Assembly (NCBI RefSeq): GCF_902813185.1
Contig: NZ_LR778301.1
Span: 1,612,001-1,676,000, forward strand
DNA from: Denitratisoma oestradiolicum
GTDB taxonomy: Bacteria > Pseudomonadota > Gammaproteobacteria > Burkholderiales > Rhodocyclaceae
DNA length: 64,000 nucleotides
Reading direction: 5' to 3'
Shown: one piece after another, positions 21,231-42,063 of the stretch
How the letters are laid out: the number at the start of each line of letters is the position of its first letter
How positions within the stretch are numbered: position 1 is the first letter of the stretch
Position numbers and translations under genes: made by a program
Notes under the pieces: model-generated
The model's database searches: none
Seen by the model: the letters and a program-made list of their open reading frames with translations, nothing else
Told to the model about the DNA's origin: nothing

Positions 21231-21463
21231 GAGCCTATTTCAGTAGGTTCCGTACGCCGCGCCGTTGGGCTTTGGGCGCGCTGCGGCGTTGTCGGTCGCT
21301 GACATGGAATAACCATGCGGCGCTCCCTCCGCCTTGCATCGCATCCCAAAGCCCAACGGCCCTCCGGGTTGGGTCAAGGGCGGGCGATGCTGCGTTGCGT
21401 GGCTTGCGCTCATTCCGCCCTTGGCTCAACGCGGGGTACGGAACCTACTGAAATAGGCGCTAA
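21231..21463. repeat. palindromic repeat element, copy 1 (MITE-like)
   Basis: Perfect 23-bp terminal inverted repeats at 21233-21255 (GCCTATTTCAGTAGG...) and 21436-21458. Inside is a perfect 16-bp inverted pair (21261-21276 GCCGTTGGGCTTTGGG and 21345-21360) around a 68-bp core. A second imperfect stem comes next (GTTGGGTCAAGGGCGG / CCGCCCTTGGCTCAAC, about 21372-21430). TA lies near each end. No protein is encoded. The related element at 41795 has the same outer parts but its core is reversed. This element fills most of the 21136-21567 gap. Confidence 0.85.
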
Positions 21464-21567
21464 GTGGGCGTGAGCGGGCCGGTATTGTTTTGCGTCCACC
21501 TGGGTCCTGCCCTCCGGTGCGCACTCCGGGCGACAATGACTCACCATGTTCGTCGTAAGGGAGAGAA

Positions 21568-22623
21568 ATGATCAAGGTCCATGATCGGATCGATGTGGCG
21601 GCGGCGGATCTACCCCGCCTCCAGGCGATGATTGCCACCGCCTACCTCCCGGCTGCCGCTGCCCGCGGATTGACTCTGGTAGACAGCGCGGTTTCGCCTC
21701 CTCTGGTACTGGTGGATCGTCCGCTAACCCTTTGGCTGCAATGGGAGTTGGCGAACGTGGAGGCATTCTGGATCGCTCGCAATATTGGCGGCAATGATCC
21801 TTCCGTAGCCGCTTTCTGGTCCGAGGTGGATGGTTTTTGCGTCGATCGGGAGCGAAGCTACCTGTTGCCCGATCAACCTGCCCACAGCGCGGCTTTGCTG
21901 ACCCGACCCACGAGCCTCTCAGCCTACCTCGTCCGGCCCGGTGGCTGGCGGGAGACTGCTCAACTCTATCTCAGGACCGGTGCCGACGAGAACGCCCGGC
22001 GGACGGTGGAGGATGTCCTGGCCGGAGCGGCAGGCCTGCCGGGTCTGAGCTTTCAACAGTGGGGCACCAATAGTGTGACCGATTTCGGTGCAGGTCATTA
22101 CACCTGGGACCTGCTCTATCCCGATGCCGCCACCGCAGCGGCCGCCCATGCCAGTCCGCTTTGGCAACAGCACGTCATGCCCGTGTTGCGGAAATACTGC
22201 GCATCCTGGTCAGCCCTCGGTCTCGACACGATCGGCGCGGGTCTGCGCAATTCAAAATTGACGGGCGGTGTCAAGCGGACCGCCCTGTTCCGCCGCCTGG
22301 CAGGGGCCGACGGTGCCCGCGCCCCTGGCTTCGAGGCGGCAACTCTGGACATGCCCGCACATATCGATTCCATCATCAACTGGCGCTTGAGTCGGGCCCG
22401 CGTGCTGGACTGGGACAGCGGCCACCAGACCTGGGACTATGTCTGGGAGCAGGAGTACGCCAGCCTGGACGGCCTTTTGGGCGCCTACATGATCCATCCG
22501 CATCACTGGGCTCATGTCGACCGGGCCTTCGATCCCGAGTCCGGCCAACAATTCATCGATGTCCGACTCTGTCACGCATTCTGTTCCCAGGCCGAAAGTC
22601 TGCTGGGCTGTGAAGCGCCCTGA
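21568..22623 (+). CDS. hypothetical protein with dimeric alpha/beta-barrel (Dabb-like) repeats
   Basis: 351 residues, soluble, no signal. The C-terminal third (AHIDSIINWRLSRAR ... WEQEYASLDGLLGAYMIHPHHWAHVDRAFDPE) resembles stress-responsive Dabb domains. A middle portion (RRTVEDVLAGAAG ... GHYTWDLLYPDAATAAAA) looks like a second, diverged copy, so the protein may be an internal duplication. Dabb folds occur in small-molecule enzymes and in proteins of unknown role. It heads a run of oxidoreductase genes and may act on the same substrate (inference). No precise function assigned. Confidence 0.6.
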   Translation: MIKVHDRIDVAAADLPRLQAMIATAYLPAAAARGLTLVDSAVSPPLVLVDRPLTLWLQWELANVEAFWIARNIGGNDPSVAAFWSEVDGFCVDRERSYLLPDQPAHSAALLTRPTSLSAYLVRPGGWRETAQLYLRTGADENARRTVEDVLAGAAGLPGLSFQQWGTNSVTDFGAGHYTWDLLYPDAATAAAAHASPLWQQHVMPVLRKYCASWSALGLDTIGAGLRNSKLTGGVKRTALFRRLAGADGARAPGFEAATLDMPAHIDSIINWRLSRARVLDWDSGHQTWDYVWEQEYASLDGLLGAYMIHPHHWAHVDRAFDPESGQQFIDVRLCHAFCSQAESLLGCEAP

Positions 22624-22810
22624 TACATACATAACGCTCATGGAAGCCGATTTTCCGCCCCGGTCCATGAAACACGGGAAAGACAGGAAGGCCCACCCCC
22701 TCCCAGCCTTCCCCTCTCCTGGGGAGGTGACGATGCTGGCTCGCTACGCTCGACAGTTCGACCTGCCGTTTCAATTCGCTATTTCACGTTAACGATACGA
22801 GGATAAACCC

Positions 22811-39778: not shown

Positions 39779-41766
39779 CGCGCATGGTTGCCGACGCGCT
39801 GCAGAACCGCCCCCTATGGGTGCCATCGCCGTCACGGGCGGGTGCCAGCGCCATGGCCGCGTTCATGGCCTGTGCCCGGCAGTCATCGGGTCTGGCGTTG
39901 GCGGACTATGGGGCGCTGCATGACTGGTCAATCAATGATCCGGTGGCATTCTGGCGGGAGATCTGGCACCAGGGGGGCGTGATCGGCGAGATCGGTGCTC
40001 GGGGCCTGGTGGATGGCGAGCGCATGCCGGGCGCCCGCTGGTTTCCCGATGCCCGCCTCAACTTCGCCGAGAATCTGCTGCGGGACAGTAGCAATGCCGA
40101 GGCCCTGGTGTTCCGGGGCGAGGACAAGGTGGTGCGGCGCATGTCGCGCCGGGAATTGCGCACCGAAGTGGCCCGCTTTGCCGCTGCGCTGGAGGAGGCC
40201 GGGGTGGTGGCGGGCGATCGGATCGCGGCCTACCTGCCCAACCTGCCCGAGACCCTGGTGGCCATGCTGGCGGCGGCCAGCATGGGCGCGGTATTCACCA
40301 GCGCCTCCCCGGACTTCGGTGTGCAGGGCGTGGTGGATCGGTTCGGGCAGGTCGGGCCCAAGGTGCTGATTGCTTGCGATGGCTACTGGTACAACGGCAA
40401 GGTCATCGACATTCGCGCCCGGCTTGCCGATCTGCTACCCCGGCTGCCCAGCGTGCAGCGGCTGGTCGTGGTGTCCTATCTGGCCCTTAACGAGGGGGTG
40501 GGCGACCTTCCCAAAGCGGTCAGCTATGGGGACTTCATCGCGCCCCATGGCGACCGCAGCGAACCCGTGTTCACCCCCTTGCCCTTTGATCACCCCCTCT
40601 ACGTGATGTATTCCTCCGGCACCACCGGGGTGCCCAAGTGCATCGTCCATGGCGCGGGGGGCACCCTGCTGCAACACCTCAAGGAACATCGGCTGCATTG
40701 CGATGTGCGCCCCGGCGACCGCTTGTTTTATTTCACCACCTGCGGCTGGATGATGTGGAACTGGCTGGTGTCGGGTCTGGCGTCGGAGGCCACCCTCATG
40801 CTCTACGACGGCAATCCCATGATCGACGGCGGGCGGGTGTTGTGGGATTACGCGGCGAGGGAGGGCATCACCCATTTCGGCACCTCGGCCAAGTATCTGG
40901 AGACTCTCGCCAAGAGCGGGCTCTGCCCCGGCCAGGACTACGACCTCTCCGCCTTGCGGGTGCTGCTGTCCACCGGCAGCCCCCTGGCGCCGGAGAGCTT
41001 CGACTTCGTATATCGGGCCATCAAGGCTGAGCTGCAACTGTCCTCGATTTCCGGCGGCACCGACATCATCTCCTGTTTCGTGCTGGGCAACCCGATGCTG
41101 CCCGTATGGCGCGGCGAGATTCAGTGCAGCGGGCTGGGCATGGCGGTGGACGTGTGGGACGAGGCGGGGCGTCCAATCCGGGGCGAAAAGGGGGAGCTGG
41201 TCTGCACCCAGCCCTTTCCCTCCATGCCCATCGGCTTCTGGAACGATCCTGGAGGCGGCAAATACGCGGCCGCCTATTTCGAGCGCTTCCCCGGCGTGTG
41301 GTGCCATGGGGACTTCTGCGAGATCACCGCCCATGGGGGGCTGATCATCCATGGCCGTTCCGATGCCACCCTCAACCCGGGCGGGGTGCGCATCGGCACC
41401 GCCGAAATCTATCGGCAGGTGGAGCGCCTGTCCGAGGTATTGGAGTCCATTGTCATCGCTCAGGAGTGGCCGCCGCAGAAGCCGACCGATGTCCGGGTGG
41501 TGCTTTTCGTGCGGCTGCGGGAGGGCCTGATGCTGGACGAGGCTTTGATGGCGCGCATCCGGCAGGCGATTCTGGAAAACACCACGCCCCGTCACCTGCC
41601 GGCCCGGATCGTCCAGGTGCCGGAGATTCCCCTGACCAAGAGCGGTAAGCGGGTGGAACTGGCCGTGCGCAACGTCGTCCATGGACGACCGGTGAAAAAC
41701 ATCGAGGCCCTGGCCAACCCGGAGGCCTTGCGCCACTTCACGGCAAGGCCGGAGCTGCTGGTCTGA
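39775..41766 (+). CDS. aacS: acetoacetyl-CoA synthetase
   Basis: 663 residues from ATG 39775, overlapping the liuE stop; the length is typical. ANL adenylate-forming motifs: [19 protein letters not shown] (P-loop), [22 protein letters not shown] and the C-terminal catalytic Lys in KSGKRVE. It activates the acetoacetate made by LiuE, closing the pathway, and could feed PHB synthesis. The final 57 bp of this gene recur exactly at 50146-50202. Confidence 0.95.
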
Positions 41767-41794
41767 GGGGACGGTTCACCGGCGATTTGGCGCA

Positions 41795-42063
41795 TTAGAG
41801 CCTATTTCAGTAAGGGCCGCATCCCGCGCCGTCGGGCTTTGGGATGCAAGGCGGAGGGAGCGTTGCATGGTCATTCCATGCCAGCGACCGACAACGCCGC
41901 AGCGCGCCCAAAGCCCGGCGGCCCTTCGGGTTGTGTTCAGGGCGGGCGATCGCTGCGTTGCGCGGCTTGCGAAGGGAACAACCCTTCGCTGCGCCACGAC
42001 GCCTTGCGCTCATCCCGCCCTGAGCACAACGCGGGGTACGTCCCCTACTGAAATAGGCTCTAA
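41795..42063. repeat. palindromic repeat element, copy 2, with core reversed
   Basis: Terminal inverted repeats TTAGAGCCTATTTCAGTA (41795-41812) and its complement (42046-42063), imperfect for 16 bp more. An inner pair at 41828-41843 and 41907-41922 encloses a 63-bp core. A third stem follows (GTTGTGTTCAGGGCGGG near 41931 and CCCGCCCTGAGCACAAC near 42014). Outer parts align collinearly with 21231-21463. The core matches only as its reverse complement (about 93% by eye, with one 5-nt gap). It carries an extra hairpin CGAAGGGAACAACCCTTCG. TA flanks suggest a TA-targeting element. Confidence 0.85.

Follow-up and report, generated by a model that had tools for sequence, protein, structure and literature searches.

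A hairpin core inverted between its arms in a dispersed MITE-like repeat of Denitratisoma oestradiolicum

Results

The window analysed here is a 64,000-nucleotide (nt) stretch of the Denitratisoma oestradiolicum genome (contig NZ_LR778301.1, positions 1,612,001 to 1,676,000), and it contains two copies, E1 and E2, of a palindromic repeat that resembles a miniature inverted-repeat transposable element (MITE). E1 is situated between the gene for an AraC-type regulator and an open reading frame (ORF) without a Pfam match, and E2 between an acetyl-CoA-synthetase-like gene and the gene for a large DUF4011/AAA protein. Both follow one family plan, comprising a terminal stem, a first hairpin (HP1), a CCC-NNN-GGG linker mini-hairpin and a second hairpin (HP2), with 3-bp target duplications of the TNA type. 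In E1 the core of HP1 is inverted between its inner arms, all the sequence outside keeping its direction. The parts of the two elements are as follows.

21230..21461, + strand: element E1, MITE-like, with the flipped HP1 core; terminal inverted repeat of 32 nt, 94% complementary; terminal 15-mers flanked by TAA and TAA
21230-21261: E1 left outer arm, pairing with the right terminal arm at 21430..21461 (+)
21261..21276, + strand: left inner arm of E1 HP1, 16/16 complementary to 21345-21360
21277..21344, - strand: HP1 core of E1, reversed with respect to the standard copies, from core comparison and the survey of copies
21345..21360, + strand: right inner arm of E1 HP1, from the inverted-repeat search
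21360..21368, + strand: E1 linker mini-hairpin CCCTCCGGG, from linker position and direct reading
21364..21434, + strand: E1 HP2 (third stem), arms 21364-21383 and 21415-21434
41795..42063, + strand: element E2, MITE-like, standard orientation; terminal inverted repeat of 34 nt, 88% complementary
41795-41828: E2 left outer arm, pairing with the right terminal arm at 42030..42063 (+)
41828..41843, + strand: left inner arm of E2 HP1, 94% complementary to 41907-41922
41844..41906, + strand: E2 HP1 core in standard orientation, with 5 columns gapped relative to copy L214
41907..41922, + strand: right inner arm of E2 HP1, from the inverted-repeat search
41922..41930, + strand: E2 linker mini-hairpin CCCTTCGGG, from direct reading and linker position
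41927..42033, + strand: E2 HP2 (third stem), arms 41927-41946 and 42014-42033

An inverted-repeat search of both elements recovered the repeats and coordinates of the original prediction. The limits given there for the elements were essentially right, except that the terminal 15-mers actually run 21231-21460 and 41798-42060, and the third stem is on the right in both copies as predicted, except that its tip is absent from E1 (core of 30 nt versus 68 in E2). The folding of both elements far exceeded that of shuffled sequences, E1 having a z of -13.2 and E2 one of -11.7, and 0 of 200 shuffles did as well. Neither a sigma-70-like promoter nor an intrinsic terminator was called at 21100-21600. A scan of the window against Rfam 15 found five tRNAs only, E1 and E2 not being matched, and the best E-value of E2 against Rfam 15 was 0.12, under the gathering score of that family.

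As the original prediction had it, E1 and E2 align without any reversal beyond their inner arms and their HP1 cores align only as reverse complements, with 59 matches in 70 columns compared with 40/73 forward. The contrast was sharper against L214 and L206, two better preserved copies in the same genome, where the E1 core matched at 66/70 as the reverse complement and at 43/74 forward. Outside the core, E1 matched these copies in the forward direction at the left end (26/31 and 25/31), the inner arms (13/15 each) and the right end (27/31). When its HP1 was scored against 155 other copies (see below), the median forward-minus-reverse score was -16. Chance is ruled out as the source of this reversal, since E1 and L229 (-14) are the sole negatives among the 156 and the next values are 0.0 for L258, which is badly parsed, and L323, and 2.0 for L261; in L323 and L261 the best forward match of HP1 is far above the best reverse match.

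The genome (4.29 Mb, two contigs) has five near-full copies of 230-268 bp, namely E1, E2, C1:1060957, C1:2196765 and C1:2431805, together with a half copy at C1:366048. E1 is the odd one of the five, the other four sharing one orientation. No match to the element was found in the same-genus genomes G001 and G002, and a search for an empty site corresponding to E1 found none; of the sequence around E1, only the right-hand gene had a good match in G002, and G001 gave no more than weak pieces. E2 had no match among plasmids and phages. Near C1:472850 and C1:2715090 lie two elements whose ends differ (AGGGTCTGTTCTCATTCA..) but which enclose a body of this kind. In these (L022 and L023), which carry a second type of terminal inverted repeat (TIR), TIR-B, the internal-loop strands GGAGGGAG and CGACCGAC of HP1 are in swapped order relative to HP1 of elements with the TIR-A type of E1. 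We considered and rejected an inversion here, the two being on the same strand and not reverse-complemented, that is, a rotated internal loop.

Orientation was surveyed in 156 distinct copies, comprising 59 two-hairpin TIR-A copies, oriented by the linker itself, and 97 from matches to a covariance model that covers the linker and HP2 and had 45 elements, TIR-A and others, as its input. The 110 matches taken were 30 automatic loci and 80 from the printed list, a non-random choice with some rows skipped, and 10 without outer stem or linker and three duplicates were dropped. L186, with a truncated HP1, was excluded from the orientation counts, and a separate listing of 15 elements has only L022 (again as L247) in common with the 156. 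HP1 played no part in finding the 97, and HP2 flips may be missed among them since they were found with a model of standard HP2s.

At least two further copies, both from other genomes, underwent the same kind of inversion, in one case in HP2. Reversed hairpins were HP1 in E1 and in L229 (G289:C28:136793-137059, in the genome of Propionivibrio dicarboxylicus DSM 5885), and HP2 in L179, from a Hydrogenophilaceae metagenome-assembled genome; these three of 312 hairpins were already present among the 59 TIR-A copies, and the 97 added elements contributed none. The reversed copies are in three genomes, with no second copy of any seen. L229 is the cleanest case. Compared with L220, from a same-genus genome, it matched forward at the left end (30/31), in the inner arms (15/15 and 14/15), in HP2 (97/101) and at the right end (28/31), whereas the HP1 cores of the two agreed at 66/70 in reverse complement and at 46/77 in the forward direction. 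The HP2 core of L179 matched that of L226 at 58/70 as the reverse complement and 39/73 forward. These inversions are directly observed in the aligned copies. The three reversed hairpins stand well clear of the rest in score, although a few others, chiefly L258 and the shortened HP2 of E1, have scores so close to zero that they are hardly informative. The lowest HP2 medians among non-reversed hairpins were 2 for E1 and 4 for L258. Among 59 elements no clear nested (apical) inversion was seen besides the three whole-core reversals. One fixed orientation in all other copies was named in the original prediction as an outcome that would speak against it; this holds within the genome, where all four others are standard, but across relatives there are the two further independent inversions.

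It could be supposed that the 16-bp inner repeats led an assembler to turn the core, and hairpin repeats can mislead short-read assembly. However, arms and core together make about 100 bp and would lie inside one read of usual length, the reversal is present in three different assemblies, and each flipped core shows several differences from its closest standard partner (66/70, 66/70 and 58/70). An assembly artefact is therefore very unlikely.

The wording of the original prediction, an invertible cassette, implied active flipping. A core lying between inverted repeats and the occurrence of both orientations in one genome would suit a programmed switch of the phase-variation kind, worked by a site-specific recombinase. 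We consider this highly improbable with only 2 of 156 HP1 and 1 of 156 HP2 reversed, all 14 scorable single-hairpin copies of 176-177 bp standard, and no recombinase domain among 14 ORFs scanned with Pfam, a minority of those in the window. Furthermore, no shared recombinase site or active switch is indicated, since the three flipped hairpins have arms that are perfect (15/15, 15/15 and 17/17) but different in sequence. The perfection of these arms is itself only suggestive, since perfect arms occur in 24/60 HP1 and 19/60 HP2 overall, the flipped ones included.

A flipped hairpin might also be one replaced by the module of the other hairpin. HP1 and HP2 have the mirrored motif TGCAAGGCG..CAACGCCGCA in common and would be natural mirror images; in standard copies both hairpins have TGCAAGGCG, or a similar motif, turned towards the outer end. 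On scores computed with seven reference elements in the wrong orientation, the best HP1-forward match of L179 (44.5) almost equals its best HP2-reverse match (46.0) and E1 has an all-copy median of 18.5 for HP2-forward, above its 11 for HP1-reverse, whereas the best matches are 59 for HP1-reverse versus 30.5 for HP2-forward in E1 and 59 versus 16.5 in L229, and the medians of L179 favour HP2-reverse (34 versus 10.5). A module swap is the less likely course since each flipped core finds its best match among the reverse-complemented cores of its own class of hairpin, L179 by a small margin, and overall we find it hardly credible.

The hairpins are also strongly covarying. Double changes were found in 72 of 94 pairs, and 96.7% of cells were paired compared with 36-39% when slid; there were 764 double-change cells, whereas shuffles gave 191 and slid controls no more than 123. 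Watson-Crick cells other than the most frequent pair numbered 747, and for 376 of these a path through a single G-U step is impossible. Mismatch cells were G-T in 102 cases, one mostly G-T pair being left out, and A-C in 77; the two counts are similar and therefore the RNA of one strand is not strongly favoured. This is the pattern that complementarity kept at the DNA level would be expected to give. Strong covariation together with such mismatch counts is a caution that covariation in bacterial repeats is no proof of an RNA. The 3-nt loop of the linker was found in both senses among the 156 copies (TTC 65/GAA 21, TCC 23/GGA 15, TGC 12/GCA 4), as counts without a chance control.

As predicted, the repeat is a dispersed MITE-like element, with terminal inverted repeats, target-site duplication and a number of scattered copies that have no room for a transposase gene. 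With E2 as the query, 42 of 297 genomes of the family gave matches, two candidates being scored per genome. A pattern requiring both ends gave 34 named loci, of which three are labelled Proteobacteria and two only bacterium; the other 29 belong to what we take to be betaproteobacterial groups. A looser end pattern was found in 6/399 genomes of the order and 12/395 of the family, that of D. oestradiolicum included. Entry to the TIR-A set required at least 20 of 30 terminal bases paired, and 76 distinct copies were collected, 57 of them 265-269 bp long with the linker at 126-128; in the 60 longest copies, 21-30 of 30 terminal bases were paired. Of 75 copies, 36 had the same 3 bp on both flanks, compared with a mean of 20.5 and a maximum of 32 when the pairing was shuffled 2000 times; a TNA flank was present on the left in 62/75 and on the right in 64/75.

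Internal deletion forms of 197 bp (without the HP1 core), 176-177 bp (without HP1) and about 50 bp (without both hairpins) were found; a same-genus genome has one of about 50 bp at the site orthologous to L229, the flipped copy of 267 bp. Copy pairs L137/L167 and L138/L168, at matching sites of G105 and G289, aligned over their full length in one orientation. A search of 15 genomes for an autonomous parent with the TIR-A end 15-mer, at most one mismatch being allowed, gave by eye no facing pair at insertion sequence (IS) distance among the matches listed, where facing pairs were about 44-57, 150, 176, 229-230 and 263-268 bp apart.

The body extends beyond TIR-A. The linker-HP2 model matched in 116 of 399 genomes of the order and in 57 of 159 genera, at E-values, themselves rough, no higher than 1e-6 and with nine candidates per genome scored, and an outer stem was present in 100 of the 110 matches examined. 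How many end types are counted varies with the threshold, a loose one giving three groups and a stricter one five, plus singletons: at 13/16 identities the ends of the 156 copies form clusters of 84, 30, 25, 8 and 4 with five singletons, one being a mis-cut member of the second cluster; at 12/16, clusters of 85, 64 and 4 with three singletons; and at 11/16 nearly all join. In 1000 sampled pairs between the 13/16 clusters, HP1 matched at a median of 52% versus 37% shuffled, 901 pairs lying above the shuffled 95% point. The linker plus HP2, which unlike HP1 had been used in finding, gave a median of 66% versus 37%; the likeness of HP2 among the 97 is partly a selection effect since an HP2 model found them. 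Length was 260-280 bp in 145 of the 156, and in 87 of the 97 found without a length-bounded pattern. L242, L246, L261, L323, L274, L306 and L294 are longer (287-328 bp), with surplus bases before the linker.

Several further features of the window were recorded. A gene for a DinB-like Y-family polymerase (Pfam IMS; 18861-20027, +) lies 1.2 kb from E1. Adjoining E2 are genes for the DUF4011/AAA protein, which also has an MTES_1575 domain (42194-48346, +), and an AbiEii-domain protein (48380-49609, -), a pair that looks like a small defence island. Four tRNA genes at 53135-53518 (+), with alternating scores of 61.8/56.1/61.8/56.1 bits, are likely to be a duplicated tRNA pair.

Discussion

The family probably represents a non-autonomous MITE-like element in which hairpin loops have been inverted rarely and sporadically by template switching, each inversion being fixed copy by copy without a regulated switch. 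A core turned between the inner inverted repeats is, as the original prediction held, the product expected from template switching or recombination, and we infer that template switching made the inversions. The hairpin would fold during replication, the polymerase would switch to the complementary arm, and the loop side would then be copied in reverse before the polymerase switched back. The same switching would help to hold the arms complementary. In yeast, template switching between short inverted-repeat arms is described as leading to arm homogenisation and spacer inversion (PMC8604942), and loop-inversion patterns are described in RNA genes, bacterial ones included (PMC8794818).

Homologous or RecA-independent recombination between the inner arms, within one element or with a sister copy, could have turned the cores without any template switching, and each flipped hairpin has inner arms that repeat perfectly in inverted orientation. 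However, these arms are only about 15-18 bp, which is short for RecA-dependent exchange, and covariation with little strand bias together with 3-nt linker loops in both senses points to a process acting on all hairpins. We therefore regard recombination as unlikely.

Several observations weigh against template switching. Ordinary recombination between the inner arms would give an identical product, and selection on a cruciform would likewise produce the covariation. The inversions reported in yeast (PMC8604942) changed 2-5 bp, while the spacers turned here measure about 67-69 bp, and in Table 1 of PMC8794818 loop inversion alone is enriched over simulation whereas compensatory change plus loop inversion is not. 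The nearest relatives of E1 are paralogues, and the orthologous site of L229, the only one found for a flipped copy, is without both hairpins; for these reasons there is no comparison of ancestor and descendant at one locus.

We read the wider distribution as one body with changing ends, widespread across the order. Alternatively, the ends may have drifted, or there may have been convergence. A more tentative suggestion, which we put forward with some doubt, is that the body may be one lineage of structured passenger DNA whose transposase-binding ends were repeatedly swapped, its fold and its length of ~267-272 bp being kept because the folded DNA is recognised, in transposition or by a host factor, and that the loop inversions may be scars of template switching, which would also maintain the palindrome. 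If this is true, the folded form would be a cruciform or a lagging-strand hairpin, and three to five main terminal-repeat types would have carried it so far. With a widespread betaproteobacterial repeat family of differing ends in hand, its function and its mobiliser can now be sought. The survey also adds three independent hairpin-loop inversions from mobile-looking bacterial DNA; their spacers measure about 67-69 bp, and one case can be read at sight.

No description of this repeat family was recognised in the open-access literature of PubMed Central, subscription journals and ISfinder being outside that scope, and the family is apparently undescribed. Its terminal ends (GAGCC.., with TNA or YTAR targets) may be those of the IS5 group. 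As in other bacterial MITEs, the copies are short and dispersed with terminal inverted repeats, 3-bp target duplications and internal deletion derivatives; they differ in having a two-hairpin body of near-constant length that is common to several terminal-repeat types. REP/REPIN and BOX-type repeats are likewise dispersed palindromic repeats made of hairpin modules, whereas the present family has long terminal inverted repeats, target duplications, a length of about 267 bp and two mirrored bulged hairpins. TIMEs, which are mosaic non-autonomous transposons derived from Tn3, are similar in being non-autonomous elements whose parts have different histories, but here it is the internal body that recurs and the outer ends that vary. 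The main text of a 2024 review of prokaryotic MITEs does not contain the words "hairpin", "cruciform", "orientation" or "Betaproteobacteria" (PMC10969869), and a literature search for spacer inversion in bacteria returned nothing beyond PMC8604942. The closest likeness in process is to template-switch (quasipalindrome) inversions, which (PMC8604942, PMC8794818) have in common with ours a spacer turned between intact arms, recurrent, independent occurrence and perhaps homogenisation of the arms; ours differ in that spacers of about 67-69 bp have been turned within a mobile-looking element, compared with the 2-5 changed bases of the yeast inversions.

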